The position numbers were made by a program, and so were the translations under genes. Shown here one piece after another: positions 13,227-33,292 of a DNA stretch of 59,263 nucleotides. The notes under the pieces are model-generated. The model was not told the DNA's origin. It searched no databases and saw nothing but the letters and a program-made list of their open reading frames with translations. Source of the stretch: an uncultured Oscillospiraceae bacterium (GTDB lineage: Bacteria > Bacillota > Clostridia > Oscillospirales > Oscillospiraceae); the NCBI GenBank assembly GCA_944386985.1, contig CALXDD010000015.1:1-59263 (forward strand), read 5' to 3'. Within the stretch, counting starts at the first letter, position 1. Every line of letters starts with the position of its first letter.

Positions 13227-14476
13227 GAATCCAAAGCTTTTCCGAAAAACAGAGGCGGGTGCTGCTGTGGTGGTGTCCAGGATCGGAGGACAGCCGCAGA
13301 GAGGCCATCATTTGTGACGGGGCCGTCAGAAGCGGCAAGACACTGGCCATGGGACTCAGCTTTTTTTGCTGGGCTACCGCCGCCTTTCACCAGCGGCAGT
13401 TTGCGCTGTGCGGAAAAACCATTGTGGCCCTCAGGCGCAATCTGGTCAATGAGCTGACGCCCCTGCTGGGGGAGCTGGGCCTCAGCGTCAGCGAACGGCG
13501 CAGCGCCAACCAGATGGTGGTCCGGGGGGAGGGGCACGAGAACCTCTTCCATCTCGTCGGCGGTAAGGACGAGGGCAGCGCGGCGCTGATCCAGGGCGCC
13601 ACCTTCGCCGGGGTGCTGATGGACGAGGTGGCCCTTATGCCCAGAAGCTTCGTGGAGCAGGCGTTGGCCCGGTGCAGCGTGGAGGGCAGCAGACTATGGT
13701 TCAACTGCAACCCTGAGGGGCCCCAGCACTGGTTTTATCGGGAGTGGATCCGACGGGCCGAGGAGAAAAACGCCCTCTACCTCCATTTTACCATGGCCGA
13801 TAACCCCAGCCTCTCCCCCGCTATGCGGCGGCGGTATGAAAACCGCTACTCCGGGGCGTTCTACCGCCGGTTTGTATTGGGGGAATGGTCCGCGGCCGAG
13901 GGACTCATCTACGATTTCTTTTCCCCGGAGGAGATGGTACAGCCGGTGCCGGAGGGGGAGCTGGAACGGTACTGCGTCTCCATCGATTACGGCACCGCCA
14001 ACCCATGCTCCTTTGGATTATGGGGGCTGCGGGACGGAGTGTGGTATCGGGTGGACGAGTATTATTACGCATCCCGGGACACCGGCGTACAGAAGACGGA
14101 TCAGGAGTATGTGGCGGATCTGAGACGGCTGGCTGCGGGCCGGCGGCTTTGGCGGGTGGTGGTGGATCCCTCCGCCGCCAGCTTTATCACCGCACTGCGC
14201 CGGGAGGGCTTTCCCGTGGTGAAGGCGGAGAACGACGTGCTGGCGGGCATCCGCCTGACGGCAGGGCTTCTCAAAAGCGGAAGGCTGGTGATCTGCAGGC
14301 CCTGCCGGGATCTTCTGCGGGAGATGGCCCTCTACTGCTGGGAGGCCGGCGGCCAGGGCCGGGAGGTCCCTCTGAAGCAGAACGACCACGCCATGGACGA
14401 TATGAGATATTTCGCATCTACAGTGGCGGGCGGGGTTAAGGGGGACGGCTTTGCCGCCGTGTCTGTGGAGCGGTGA
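13223..14476 (+). CDS. Phage terminase large subunit (PBSX-type)
   Basis: 417 residues. Walker A is CDGAVRSGKT (about residue 31-40), Walker B is AGVLMDEVAL, and the RNase-H-like nuclease shows SIDYGTANP, VVDPSAASF and MDDMRYFAS with the expected acidic residues. It is the ATP-driven DNA packaging motor and head-filling nuclease. All key motifs are intact, so the protein looks active. The next gene (portal) starts 23 bases after the stop. Confidence 0.95.
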   Translation: MRIQSFSEKQRRVLLWWCPGSEDSRREAIICDGAVRSGKTLAMGLSFFCWATAAFHQRQFALCGKTIVALRRNLVNELTPLLGELGLSVSERRSANQMVVRGEGHENLFHLVGGKDEGSAALIQGATFAGVLMDEVALMPRSFVEQALARCSVEGSRLWFNCNPEGPQHWFYREWIRRAEEKNALYLHFTMADNPSLSPAMRRRYENRYSGAFYRRFVLGEWSAAEGLIYDFFSPEEMVQPVPEGELERYCVSIDYGTANPCSFGLWGLRDGVWYRVDEYYYASRDTGVQKTDQEYVADLRRLAAGRRLWRVVVDPSAASFITALRREGFPVVKAENDVLAGIRLTAGLLKSGRLVICRPCRDLLREMALYCWEAGGQGREVPLKQNDHAMDDMRYFASTVAGGVKGDGFAAVSVER

Positions 14477-14499
14477 GCACAGGAAAGGAAGGAAACTGT

Positions 14500-15666
14500 A
14501 TGGCGTTTTTCAAACGAAAGGAGGAGGGGGTGGCGGCGGCCTCCACCCAGCTGCGCAGCCGGGACGCACTCCCATGGAACAGTCTGATGGACATGGTCCC
14601 CCTGGGGGGCGGGGAGGCCCGGCTCTATCAGGCCATCCGGCAGGGAGTTCCGGCGGTGGACGCCGCCCTCTGCAAGATCATCCGGCTGGCCGGGGGCGTG
14701 TCGGTGGGCTGCAGGACACAGGACGTCCAGCAACGGATGGACCGCTTCCTCAAAACCGTGCCCACAGGCCGGGGACAGGTGGGCATCAATGCATTTTTGG
14801 ACATGTACCTCGACTCCATGCTCACCTTCGGCCAGGCGGTGGGGGAGATGGTGGTGGACCCGGAGGGGCGGGACATCGCCGCTCTGGTCTGCGGAAGGGT
14901 GGAGGATGTGCAGATCCGGGAGGGGGAGTCTCCCTTGGCCTTTACCCTCTGGGGCTACGGCAGCGATGGCATGCCCCGGCCGCTGCCCCGGCAGGATCTG
15001 CTCCTCTTCACCCCCTACAACCCCGAGGCCCACAGCCCCTATGGGGTGTCCATGCTCCGGTCCATGCCCTTTCTGACGGAGCTTCTGGGGAAGATCTACT
15101 CCGCCATGGGGGCCAACTGGGAGAGGATGGGCAACGTGCGGTTCGCCGTGGTGTGCAAGCCCCAGAACGGGGAGATGGACCCGGCCACGGCCCAGGAGCG
15201 CAGCCGGCAGATCGCCCGGGAGTGGAGCCGGGCCATGCAGAGCTCCAAGACCGGCAGCGTCCGGGATTTTGTGGCCATCGGGGATGTGGATATCCGGGTC
15301 ATCGGCGCGGACAACCAGATTTTAGACAGCGAGGTGCCGGTGCGGCAGATTTTGGAGCAGCTTATTGCAAAGACAGGGATCCCTCCCTTTATGCTGGGCC
15401 TCAGCTGGTCCTCCACGGAGCGGATGAGCACCCAGCAGGCGGACATCCTCACCTCTGAGCTGACGGCCATCCGCCGGGGGCTTACCCCGGTGGTGGAGAA
15501 GATCTGCCGGCTATGGATGCGGCTCAATGGGATTTATGAGCCCTTTGAGGTGCTGTGGGACGACATCAACCTCCAGGACGAGCTGGATGAGGCCAAGGCG
15601 GAGTGGTACCGCCAGCAGGCGAGGAAGCTGGAGCTGGAAAATCTTCAGATGGAAGGGAAGCTGTGA
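14500..15666 (+). CDS. Phage portal protein
   Basis: 388 residues. The C-terminal half holds the portal landmarks SEVPVRQILEQLIAKTGIP and SSTERMSTQQADIL, and the tail QARKLELENLQMEG is a short amphipathic helix. The portal ring is the DNA gate of the head and binds terminase and connector. ATG 14500 follows AAGGAAGGAAA; a GTG at 14473 overlapping the terminase stop is a weaker alternative. The last 56 bases are duplicated at 15793-15848 behind a hairpin-rich insert. At its stop, GTGA at 15663 recreates the overlap seen at the true protease start. Confidence 0.92.
   Translation: MAFFKRKEEGVAAASTQLRSRDALPWNSLMDMVPLGGGEARLYQAIRQGVPAVDAALCKIIRLAGGVSVGCRTQDVQQRMDRFLKTVPTGRGQVGINAFLDMYLDSMLTFGQAVGEMVVDPEGRDIAALVCGRVEDVQIREGESPLAFTLWGYGSDGMPRPLPRQDLLLFTPYNPEAHSPYGVSMLRSMPFLTELLGKIYSAMGANWERMGNVRFAVVCKPQNGEMDPATAQERSRQIAREWSRAMQSSKTGSVRDFVAIGDVDIRVIGADNQILDSEVPVRQILEQLIAKTGIPPFMLGLSWSSTERMSTQQADILTSELTAIRRGLTPVVEKICRLWMRLNGIYEPFEVLWDDINLQDELDEAKAEWYRQQARKLELENLQMEGKL
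15611..15666 (+). repeat. Left copy of duplicated portal 3' end
   Basis: The last 56 bases of the portal gene including TGA. They match 15793-15848 at 46 of 56 positions by my manual count. The two copies encode the same peptide except one Gln/Ala change. Confidence 0.9.
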
Positions 15667-15848
15667 GAGTTACTCGCCGCGGGTGCGGCGTCCAAGCGTT
15701 TTGCGGAGCAAAGCCTTGCCGCAGGGGAAATTTATTTTCCCCGAGGATTCTAATCAAGGAGGTCCCCGCCGCTTGCAAAGCGGTGGGGCAGAGCCAGCAG
15801 GCGAGAAAATTGGAACTGGAAAATTTGGCAATGGAGGGGAAGCTGTGA
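15663..15848 (+). CDS. Possible 61-residue frame through the hairpin insert
   Basis: The frame starts GTG 15663, overlapping the portal stop (GTGA) behind GGAAGGGAAGCT. It runs without a stop through the whole insert and ends at TGA 15848 in the duplicated portal tail, ending in QARKLELENLAMEGKL. The protease GTG (15845) overlaps that stop in the same way. Ribosomes could therefore pass portal, this frame, then protease by termination-reinitiation. It may be only a coupling device with no useful product. The Cys- and Arg-rich middle resembles nothing I know. Confidence 0.35.
   Translation: MRVTRRGCGVQAFCGAKPCRRGNLFSPRILIKEVPAACKAVGQSQQARKLELENLAMEGKL
15667..15792 (+). repeat. Hairpin-rich insert, copy 1 (portal/protease junction)
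   Basis: 126 bases forming four stem-loops: 15676-15689 (GCCGC/GCGGC), 15700-15712 (TTTGC/GCAAA), 15724-15742 (GGGGAAA/TTTCCCC) and 15764-15788 (CCCCGCCGCTT/AAGCGGTGGGG). The linker after stem 1 is GTCCAAGCG and before stem 3 is CCTTGCCGCA. The same order of stems and the same linkers occur at 31040-31226 in the sense direction of the EF-G-like gene. I see no protein machinery for moving it. It could be a structured RNA, a hairpin mobile element or both. Confidence 0.8.
15793..15848 (+). repeat. Right copy of duplicated portal 3' end
   Basis: Second copy of the portal tail, following the insert directly. It contains the SD GGAGGGG and overlapping start of the protease gene, so it is functionally needed by that gene even though it is no longer part of the portal frame. 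Confidence 0.9.
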
Positions 15849-30974: not shown

Positions 30975-31039
30975 GATTACTCAGCTTCGGCCAGTGCCTT
31001 TGCCTCGGCAATCGCCTTCTCCTGAGCCGCAGGAGGACA
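30975..31039 (-). repeat. Displaced copy of the EF-G-like gene's 3' end
   Basis: 65 bases identical to 31227-31291 except one base (GCA/GCT, both Ala). It includes the stop codon but has no gene in front of it; the hairpin-rich insert adjoins it directly. Confidence 0.93.
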
Positions 31040-31226
31040 GATCCCCACCGGAGCGCTGCTCCGGTGAGGGCCCCGTAGGATTGAACATGCGCGGGGCGAG
31101 TGAATCGCCCCTTGCGCCAAGGTTTTCCCGGAAGGGAAAACGCTTGAACGCCGCATGTGCGGCGGACGAGGAGTGACCTCCCGCAAAGAACCCCCGGCCT
31201 GTTGGCCGGGGGTTCTCCGAAAGTCT
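31040..31226 (-). repeat. Hairpin-rich insert, copy 2 (downstream of the EF-G-like gene)
   Basis: 187 bases between the two copies of the gene end. In the sense (minus) direction the order is a terminator hairpin, then stem 1 GCCGC/GCGGC (31163-31150), stem 2 TTTTCCC/GGGAAAA (31140-31123), stem 3 GGGGCGA/TCGCCCC (31111-31093) and stem 4 CACCGGAGC/GCTCCGGTG (31066-31046). The linkers GTTCAAGCG and CCTTGGCGCA match those at 15667-15792. Stem sequences differ from copy 1 on both sides while pairing is kept. Confidence 0.85.
31185..31215 (-). terminator. Terminator directly after the EF-G-like gene
   Basis: A 12-bp stem GAACCCCCGGCC / GGCCGGGGGTTC with a 4-base loop, then TTT on the minus strand. 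It is inside the insert-side sequence; no counterpart exists in the portal copy. Confidence 0.75.
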
Positions 31227-31291
31227 GATTACTCTGCTTCGGCCAGTGCCTTTGCCTCGGCAATCGCCTTCTCCTGAGCCGCAGGAGGACA
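31227..31291 (-). repeat. In-gene copy of the duplicated EF-G 3' end
   Basis: The terminal 65 bases of the EF-G-like gene (encoding PPAAQEKAIAEAKALAEAE and stop). Pairs with 30975-31039. Confidence 0.93.
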
Positions 31292-33292
31292 CTCCTCGTA
31301 GCGGACAAAGTGGAAGGTGAAGGAGCCGCGGGACTGACTCATGGACCGAAGGTCAATGGCGTAGGTCATCATCTCCGCCATAGGCACCTCGGCGGTGACG
31401 ATCTGATCGCCGTCGCCGGTGGGGTCCATGCCCATAACACGGCCCCGGCGCTTATTGAGGTCGCCGATGATGTCGCCCATGTAGGTGTCGGGGATGCGGA
31501 CCTTCAGCTCGCCGATGGGCTCCAGCAAAACGGGATTGGCCTCGGGCAGGGCGGCCTTGTAGGCCAGCTGGGCGGCGGTCTTGAAGGCGATTTCGGAGGA
31601 ATCCACCGGGTGGTAGGAGCCATCCACCAGAGTGGCCTTCAGATACACCACCGGGTAGCCCGCCAGTACGCCATGGGCGCAGGCCTCCCGGAGACCCTTC
31701 TCAACGGCGGGGAAGAAGTTCTTGGGCACGCTGCCGCCGAAGACCTCCTCAGCGAAGATCATATCCTCGCTCTCGTCCTGGGGCTCAAAGACAATGTGCA
31801 CATCGCCGAACTGGCCGCTGCCGCCGGTCTGCTTCTTGTGACGGCCCTGCTTACGGACCTTCTTGCGGATCTTCTCCCGGTAAGCAACACGGGGGGTATC
31901 CAGCTCCACATCCACGCCGAAGCGGCTCTTCAGCTTGCTGACCAGCACGTCGATCTGGATGTCGCCGGCGCCGGTGACCACAGTCTGGTGGGTCTCGGCA
32001 TTGTTGACCACGGTAAAGGTGGGATCTTCCTCGTTAAGACGGTTGAGGCCGGTGCCCACCTTCTCCTCCTGACCCCGGGTCTTGGGCGCGATGGCACGGG
32101 AGTAGCAGGGCTCGGCAAAGGGCACGCCCTGAAGCTTCACGATCTTCTTGGGATCGCAAAGAGTATCACCAGTGCGGACATAGTCCATCTTGGCAATGGC
32201 GCCGATGTCGCCGCAGGGGATCTCCTTGACCTCCTCGGTCTTCTTGCCCTTGATGGTGTACAGACGGCCCAGCTTCTCGGTTTTGCCGGTGGTGGTGTCG
32301 TACAGAGACATATCGCTGGTAATCTTACCGGAAACCACCTTCACCAGGGAGTATTTGCCGTACTGATCAGAGATGGTCTTGAACACAACGGCGGCGGTGG
32401 GGCCGTCGGGATTGTGGGGCACATCCACAGGATCGCCATTCTCATCCTCGCCCACAGCGGCGCGGATGACCATGGGGGAGGGAGCCAGCTCCACGATGGT
32501 CTGCAGCAGCATCTCGGTGCCGAGACCGGTGAAGGCGGAGCCGCAGAGCACCGGGGTGACAGTGCCGTCCCGCATACCCACCATCAGACCCTTGCGGATC
32601 TCGTCCTTGGTGAAGGGCTCGCCGGAGAAGTACTTCTCCATATATTCCTCGCTGGCCTCAGCCACAGCTTCCATCAGCTGGTCGTAGAACTCATCCACCA
32701 CCTTGACCTTGCTCTCGGGGATGGGGATCTCCTCCCGCTTCTTGGCGTCGTTGATGCGGTAGGCCTTCTTGTTGAGCACGTCGATGATGCCGATGGTCCG
32801 CTTGTTGTCGTCCCAGATGGGCACCACCACAGGGGCCAGAGAACTGCCCAGCTTGGAGCGCAGGGCCTCCAGAGTGATGGAAAAGTTGGCGTTTTCCTCG
32901 TCCTCCTTGGAGATGTAGACCATGCAGGGGCGGTTGGCCACCTTCAGATACTTCCAGCAGCGCTCAGCGCCCACGCTGAGACCGTCCTTGGAGGCGCACA
33001 CCAGGATGCCCACCTCAGAGGCCCGGATGCCGGACTGGACCTCACCGGCAAAGTCGAAGTTGCCCGGGGTGTCCAGCACGTTGATCTTCACGCCCTTGTA
33101 CATCACGGGCGTCATGGCCATGGAGATGGAGATCTTGCGCTTGATTTCCTCCGCGTCATAGTCACAAACGGTGTTGCCGTCTACCGTCTTGCCCAGGCGG
33201 TCGATCGCACCGGTAATATACAGCATGCTCTCCACCAGAGAGGTCTTCCCGTTGCCGCCGTGTCCCAGCAGGCAGATGTTGCGAATTTCCAT
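31229..33292 (-). CDS. Elongation factor G-like GTPase paralogue
   Basis: 687 residues with the five-domain EF-G layout. G1 is GHGGNGKTS, G3 is DTPGNFDF and G4 reads ISKED in place of NKxD. The His that activates water in EF-G (DTPGH) is Asn here. The switch I region (EEIKRKISISMAM) also lacks the canonical RGITI. Domains IV-V are present (SGQFGDVHIVFEP). This places it in the EF-G2/EF-G-like group, whose role is not settled; it may be a slow GTPase that binds ribosomes. The gene has a promoter with TATAAT and carries the duplicated 3' end with hairpin insert. Confidence 0.88.
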   Translation of the reverse strand: MEIRNICLLGHGGNGKTSLVESMLYITGAIDRLGKTVDGNTVCDYDAEEIKRKISISMAMTPVMYKGVKINVLDTPGNFDFAGEVQSGIRASEVGILVCASKDGLSVGAERCWKYLKVANRPCMVYISKEDEENANFSITLEALRSKLGSSLAPVVVPIWDDNKRTIGIIDVLNKKAYRINDAKKREEIPIPESKVKVVDEFYDQLMEAVAEASEEYMEKYFSGEPFTKDEIRKGLMVGMRDGTVTPVLCGSAFTGLGTEMLLQTIVELAPSPMVIRAAVGEDENGDPVDVPHNPDGPTAAVVFKTISDQYGKYSLVKVVSGKITSDMSLYDTTTGKTEKLGRLYTIKGKKTEEVKEIPCGDIGAIAKMDYVRTGDTLCDPKKIVKLQGVPFAEPCYSRAIAPKTRGQEEKVGTGLNRLNEEDPTFTVVNNAETHQTVVTGAGDIQIDVLVSKLKSRFGVDVELDTPRVAYREKIRKKVRKQGRHKKQTGGSGQFGDVHIVFEPQDESEDMIFAEEVFGGSVPKNFFPAVEKGLREACAHGVLAGYPVVYLKATLVDGSYHPVDSSEIAFKTAAQLAYKAALPEANPVLLEPIGELKVRIPDTYMGDIIGDLNKRRGRVMGMDPTGDGDQIVTAEVPMAEMMTYAIDLRSMSQSRGSFTFHFVRYEECPPAAQEKAIAEAKALAEAE

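Follow-up and report, generated by a model that had tools for sequence, protein, structure and literature searches.

What are the two short inserts that stand behind genes in this stretch of DNA, and how did they come to be there? The stretch, hereafter the window, comprises 59,263 nucleotides (nt) of an uncultured Oscillospiraceae bacterium (contig CALXDD010000015.1 of assembly GCA_944386985.1). An earlier note, made from its letters alone, had described two inserts with four shared stem-loops, conserved linkers, and compensated stem changes, each in the sense of its host gene and each accompanied by a duplication of that gene's 3' end. When both copies were reread, the stem-loops and linkers were where the note had placed them; copy A follows a phage portal gene and copy B a fusA-type gene, both in gene sense. 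We found that the two inserts are members of a large unnamed family and that chance is excluded. Our preferred explanation, to which we give a probability of about 0.6, is a family of noncoding mobile DNA elements that use a guide to home into the extremities of genes, where they replace the gene end that they displace. What we observed is a common anatomy, a conserved structure, guide complementarity in two thirds of the repeat-bearing loci, with the guide tracking its target, allelic gene ends, occupied and empty sites, and tandem units.

Structure and extent of the family

A covariance model of 122 positions and 37 base pairs (R1) was built from 14 of the many further copies that blastn revealed in the window's genome. 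R1 has 46 matches in that genome at E <= 1, of which 35 are at E <= 1e-5. It also matches 23 of 60 relatives (E <= 0.01), among them every one of the 11 genomes of the genus (9 to 55 matches each), and 33 of 295 genomes sampled across the order (E <= 1e-5). Among the matches listed from a pattern scan are Flavonifractor plautii ATCC 29863, Pseudoflavonifractor, Oscillibacter, Intestinimonas, Dysosmobacter, and others. The viral_contigs set gave 33 pattern matches, and 6 loci (7 matches) fit the model. Three unverified faecal "phage" contigs of 4.5 to 5 kb (L338, L339, and L340; GenBank MT838705, MT838853, and MT839134) carry elements near their ends; because the flank in MT838853 looks like the start of lepA, these three are probably bacterial DNA in the virus fraction. 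An autonomous copy, with its halves apart and an open reading frame (ORF) between them, was sought in genome G000 with a right-half model (R2), and none was present among the matches listed; these were 33 of 37, and all 33 coincide with copies that R1 had found.

Next, we examined the pairing in an alignment of 93 copies, 89 of them distinct. Standard pairs fill 97.4% of the cells, compared with 73.6% in shuffles, and these absolute percentages lean upward because the alignment was fitted to the model. Changes on both sides were seen in 33 of the 37 pairs, which bears out the compensatory changes first noticed in two copies. The covariation score was 0.562, against 0.147 in shuffles and 0.050 to 0.105 in slid controls, and 0 of 500 shuffles reached any observed value. 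Thus, the covariance-model search of relatives that the earlier note had proposed yielded significant covariation in more copies. Given the 46 and 35 matches in one genome and pair statistics above all shuffles and slid controls, the family lies beyond chance. Stem 2 is longer than first described (CAAG-C-GTTTTGC..GCAAAGC-CTTG, with one bulged base). Folded as single-stranded DNA, copy A has a z score of -4.8 and unit B a z score of -9.3, and in an unconstrained DNA fold of unit B, all four stems and the guide-target helix form.

One-sided changes such as G.U occupy only 22 of 3,130 cells, compared with 667 two-sided changes (one wobble pair in stem 4 was left out). Structured RNAs usually show many more wobble intermediates. 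The near absence of G.T or G.U intermediates therefore suggests that the structure is kept as folded DNA rather than as RNA. The complementarity is probably selected in DNA, and the element is probably not an RNA in the first instance. Of the structured mobile RNA or DNA element first proposed, then, "structured" and "mobile" stand and "RNA" probably does not.

No Rfam match at the gathering cutoff occurs in the window, and when five loci were scanned at E <= 1, nothing at an element exceeded its cutoff, with sub-cutoff matches only. The Collinsella-1 RNA reached 18 bits (cutoff, 35) at one of ten loci, which we took as chance. Judged by titles and the opening lines of abstracts, no description of these elements was found among the matches listed from the open-access literature, which is the literature covered here; subscription papers and most preprints lie outside it.

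Gene ends, guides, and insertion sites

The typical order is gene, U, guide, element, U', where U completes the gene and U' is a second, truncated gene extremity. In the window, the repeated gene ends give local scores of 79 (copy A) and 125.5 (copy B), against maxima of 28.5 and 27.5 in 20 shuffles each. The same check at further matches found a strong repeat between upstream and downstream flanks in 61 of 88 copies of a first set and in 81 of 90 copies of a second set, which was picked by the stem 2 pattern and so favors canonical copies; the control was 1.0% of 991 mismatched pairs. U' starts at most 6 nt past the element end in 78 of the 90 copies, in practice at 0 to 4 nt. In the loci read, nothing separates U from U' except the short element and a stretch of, at most, some tens of further nucleotides, and in repeat-bearing copies whose flanks were read, the complete gene is 5' of the element. 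At gene 3' ends, the insertion point, J, precedes the last base of the stop codon by a median of 60 nt. Both window copies are in gene sense as reported, but this does not hold throughout the family: among 125 loci, 117 could be classified, 102 as sense copies at the 3' end of a gene and 15 as antisense copies at a gene start (e.g., lepA), in a classification that took in only genes 5' of the element and so cannot itself exclude genes 3' of it.

The two ends differ in a telling way. At gene 3' ends, 299 codons are changed between U and U', 254 synonymously and 45 nonsynonymously, and at gene starts the corresponding numbers are 42 and 15. Random change of equal size gives 23% synonymous codons, with a maximum of 30% in 300 runs. 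No codon is changed in 18 of the 102 gene-3'-end loci, and U' is frameshifted in L016. The mostly synonymous differences imply that both ends diverged as working genes. Judged from their sequences, U and U' are two once-functional alleles and not a decayed target duplication. The gene-specific end repeat reported earlier is therefore real, and its interpretation as a plain local duplication is not upheld, because the ends differ mostly at synonymous sites. In some cases, transfer between species is visible; in most loci, the sequence would have come from a closer relative that was not sampled.

The bases immediately 5' of stem 1 often form a guide, a stretch complementary to the gene across J. 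In some copies (e.g., L012:3301, L048, and L022) an extra hairpin, H0 (GGGGCCCCGC..GCGGGG), lies between guide and stem 1; it resembles the stem 4 motif and may be a subfamily marker. A complementarity score of at least 8 was reached at 40 of 55 loci in set one (control, 5.2%) and 63 of 78 in set two (control, 9.7%), counts that include stretches not across J. We therefore used a recount restricted to stretches across J, which gave 35 of 55 loci in set one (mismatched controls, 1.5%) and 52 of 78 in set two (1.7%). Among distinct loci, the count is 85 of 127, with 3 loci common to both sets. Pairing spans about target positions -5 to +9. Mismatches are lowest at -2 to +5 and rise to the chance level by -7 and +11 in loci chosen for having a guide, with no excess of G.T over other mismatches. 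The sole target motif is a G at -2, in 78% of 49 targets, which agrees with the earlier view that no common target sequence explains the sites. The guide had been missed there and would account for the different target at each site. It also tracks that target: when one site is occupied in different species that differ there in silent bases, the match of the guide to its home genome is better in 75 of 86 ordered pairs, poorer in 2, and equal in 9; counted per locus, it is better in 38, worse in 2, and tied in 4 of 44.

We also compared sites between genomes. The 128 loci fall into 82 distinct sites, and elements at the same site have a mean similarity of 0.78 (range, 0.48 to 0.98), against 0.71 at different sites; the same sites are used across several genera. 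The fusA site is occupied in genomes G000, G001, and G010 and also in Flavonifractor (L098, L180, and L232). In G003, G007, and G009, which are of the same genus, no element lies within about 290 nt of the fusA stop codon (G005 was left out because its sequence stops 42 nt past that codon). For copy A, an empty site is seen in phage record MT835769, where the portal gene runs directly into the next gene. This arrangement implies that in the window the junction of U' with the next gene is old and that U and the element are the insert. From the continuity of U' of copy A with that old downstream gene, U rather than U' would be the newcomer. Tandem arrays repeat the whole unit of U, guide, and element (C8, C25, C31, C56, and C83; L065). 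Near the array on contig C25 there is a T-box leader (L032:1024-1251, minus strand, 96.7 bits).

Proposed mechanism and its rivals

In the explanation that we prefer, the mobile unit would run from J to the 3' end of the element and comprise a replacement end U, a guide some 13 nt long, and a segment of about 120 nt in which one strand forms four hairpins. The guide would pair across J with the gene strand on which the element itself is read and may thereby select the site. Insertion at J would leave the gene whole, because the unit supplies its own copy of the gene end, and would move the resident end, U', to the far side of the element. Between strains, the unit could pass by way of an occupied allele or of a single-stranded DNA form, and an occupied allele might be copied or moved into an empty one, with U replacing and U' being displaced, presumably by an enzyme acting in trans. 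As to how a unit first acquires the guide and the end of a gene new to it, fold-back synthesis and inverted-repeat correction are possibilities. A bolder version, which we consider slightly less likely than not, is a natural programmable DNA insertion in which a 120-nt folded end and a 13-nt guide bring about seamless gene-end replacement at many different conserved genes by an enzyme of a kind hitherto unconnected with guided insertion.

Several results weigh against this explanation. There is no complementary stretch across J in 20 of 55 and 26 of 78 repeat-bearing loci, and copy A is among them, since 5' of its H1 there is no canonical guide (the best score, 6, is not across the insertion point). 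The strong repeat was not found in 27 of 88 first-set copies, including all 7 examined from G042, and the bias of the second set toward canonical copies counts on the same side. Comparing the fit of the guide to U and to U' gave 10 against 6 with 2 ties, which does not say to which end it belongs; a count of 21 against 13 favors U by design. We also asked, for the 32 divergent loci that have same-site homologues, whether the sequence of another genome resembles U more than U' does. This was so at 6 loci, and at 6 the other genome was closer to U', so that few cases show a foreign origin of U directly. Finally, in an enzyme search limited to three families (Y1_Tnp, RVT_1, and RRXRR/IscB), none follows the element. 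Y1_Tnp (PF01797) is present in 4 of 14 copy-rich genomes, several of them incomplete; in another comparison, 8 of 18 genomes with the element have it, as do 2 of 11 without. An IscB-type RRXRR domain (PF14239), the nuclease of IscB/OMEGA systems, is above the cutoff in 0 of 30 genomes, with one weak match in an element-free genome. In a separate test of replication-strand bias, positive GC skew on the element strand was seen in 38 of 76 gene-end copies and 5 of 11 gene-start copies, and on contig C3 of G032, copies 4 kb apart have opposite orientations. Given this inconsistent skew and opposite neighbors, there is no evidence for lagging-strand locking.

The element resembles the guides of IS608 and the fungal homing elements that replace gene ends, but falls under the definition of neither. 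Natural IS608 pairs with its target through a 4-nt guide directly 5' of a hairpin, and pairing of 12 to 17 nt has been engineered (PMC5934647, in the parts covered here). As in that account, the hairpins are read on one DNA strand, the guide lies directly 5' of a hairpin on the same strand as the target, and the target, read by base pairing, would be reprogrammable. Unlike the 4-nt guide of IS608, the one here is about 13 nt and pairs on both sides of the insertion point, a replacement gene end is carried, and there is no transposase gene in the element of about 120 nt. Pairing of guide and target site, as in IS200/IS605, is thus present, and a Y1 HUH transposase in the element or consistently in the genome is not. 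In the covered part of PMC3630166, mobile endonuclease ORFs make gene hybrids in fungal mitochondria (Allomyces atp6; Glomus atp6, atp9, cox2, and nad3). There, as in our reading of the present elements, a foreign 3' end replaces the resident one, which remains downstream; in both, the difference between the ends is much greater at the DNA than at the protein level. However, those inserts carry a homing endonuclease ORF (PMC3630166), in place of which we found guide and hairpins and no ORF, and the present family differs from them in occupying many different genes of a bacterial host with 9 to 55 copies per genome in the genus.

Like repetitive extragenic palindromes (REPs) and REPINs with their RAYT transposases, the elements are short palindromic multicopy DNA, mainly downstream of genes (PMC3733652, PMC8266576). 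REPs are 20 to 40 bp, compared with about 120 nt and four hairpins here, and nothing on a target guide or on a gene end being carried appears in the portions of those accounts covered; no search was made for the GTAG/CGTC tag. Each half of the arrangement, guide and spare gene end, has precedent, and the combination was found nowhere in the open-access literature covered. Some integrative islands restore the 3' end of their target gene, bringing a site-specific integrase and using one site. They share with the elements a carried gene-end copy with the displaced end at the far side. Unlike them, the elements use dozens of sites, contain no gene, and have no shared core beyond the G at -2.

Could the unit instead act as RNA, self-splicing or reverse transcribed, with a group I-like internal guide sequence, and be spliced out so that U' is used? 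Group I introns pair with their joined exons through P1 and P10, and the guide here is complementary to the continuous x|y junction; moreover, of the 117 copies that were classified, 102 run in the sense of the gene, and U/U' differences are largely synonymous. However, G.U pairs are nearly absent, 15 of the 117 are antisense at gene starts, and the U' of L016 is frameshifted. Because U already ends the gene, splicing is not needed. In the window, there are 0 matches at the gathering score to the Rfam models of group I or II introns with their conserved catalytic core. A reverse transcriptase (RVT_1, PF00078), expected in the genome for group II introns, diversity-generating retroelements, and retrons, was found in 4 of 14 copy-rich genomes, several of the others being incomplete. 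We consider an RNA-level unit unlikely. Guide and target also form an inverted repeat around U, as would result if a template switch in the gene end had produced guide and repeat together in a fold-back replication error, the guide then having no targeting role. Correction between the arms of inverted repeats is a known process and could keep guide and target alike, as in the 75 of 86 pairs. That J has a fixed place inside the duplex, that U' begins at the element end, that two different alleles are present, and that several genera use identical sites all speak against such an error, to which we give no better chances than to an RNA.

An ordinary transposon or miniature inverted-repeat transposable element whose long (50- to 110-bp) target-site duplication diverged after insertion would leave repeats that directly flank the element, as observed, and would suit the 18 of 102 gene-3'-end loci without a changed codon. 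It is distinctly unlikely in view of 85% synonymous changes, where 23% would be expected under free decay of U', of the guide complementarity, and of the complete gene always being 5' of the element in the flanks read, when plain duplication should allow both sides. A Y1 transposase moving a nonautonomous IS200/IS605- or REP-type element in trans would fit the IS608-like polarity, the guide directly 5' of a hairpin, the reading of the target by base pairing, and the bulged stem (PMC5934647, in part), and Y1 is found in 8 of 18 element-bearing as opposed to 2 of 11 element-free genomes. The guide, however, has three times the length of the IS608 guide and extends over the insertion point, the unit includes a gene end, and Y1_Tnp, seen in 4 of 14 copy-rich genomes (several incomplete), has no match in the near-complete G206 (20 copies, 7 contigs), G119 (12 copies), G066, G042, and G321, which makes this explanation very unlikely. 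The location of most copies behind stop codons in sense would suit an immobile regulatory or terminator structure of the 3' untranslated region, a possibility that is hardly credible beside the occupied/empty polymorphism, the tandem arrays, the antisense copies at gene starts, and the gene-end repeats.

The two copies and the meaning of the family

Coordinates of copies A and B are collected in Table 1. The Pfam Phage_portal model gives the host gene of copy A 23.2 bits, under its cutoff of 39.1. A tailed-phage head module (terminase, portal, and major head) occupies about 13.2 to 18.1 kb of the window, with core genes such as fusA on the same contig; in copy A, the element has entered a phage structural gene.

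Table 1. Features of copies A and B in the window
Feature	Position	Strand	Remark
Portal protein gene, host of copy A	14473..15666	+	PHROG portal protein, E 9e-159; in prophage; start codon possibly 14500
U of copy A, gene end with stop codon, joined to portal gene	15611..15666	+	
Element A, stems H1-H4	15672..15789	+	R1 match, 103.5 bits
Stems of copy A	H1 15675-15690; H2 15693-15718; H3 15724-15742; H4 15764-15788 (within 15761-15789)		H1 CGCCGC/GCGGCG; H3 GGGGAAA/TTTCCCC
U' of copy A, second, displaced portal gene end	15793..15848	+	Continuous with next phage gene
EF-G-like gene (fusA type), host of copy B	31229..33292	-	EF-G domains in Pfam
U of copy B, gene end joined to gene	31229..31293	-	J near 31293/31294
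Guide of copy B, complementary to gene across J	31166..31181	-	Score 13, target -6 to +10
Element B, stems H1-H4	31042..31167	-	R1 match, 105 bits
Stems of copy B	H1 31149-31164; H2 31118-31146; H3 31093-31111; H4 31043-31074	-	H3 GGGGCGA/TCGCCCC
U' of copy B, displaced gene end	30975..31039	-	1 difference from U in 65 nt

Two further observations concern what may adjoin the elements. Genome G042, from another family of the order, has 104 right-half matches, with elements inside composites of further palindromes and a different stem 2 sequence (L106 to L109, L128, and L129). An unrelated second repeat family, containing GGAAAGGAGGAGCAAGG, splits the displaced gene end in L098 (U' region, 719-746) and adjoins the element in L124 (1059-1086); its motif is absent from the window.

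Taken together, these results probably describe a new kind of small mobile DNA with a guide and a spare gene end. If the guide chooses the site, this would be natural long-guide DNA targeting by a noncoding element, which in the covered part of the IS608 account has so far been engineered (PMC5934647). The 85 of 127 distinct loci with a guide across J form a natural set of guide-target pairs and a directly testable target code, and Flavonifractor plautii and other gut bacteria that can be cultured lend themselves to a search for the enzyme. If the explanation is true, the spare gene end solves a parasite's problem of living inside essential genes, and the gene ends and 3' regions of common gut bacteria of the Flavonifractor-Oscillibacter group would have been shaped by mobile DNA.
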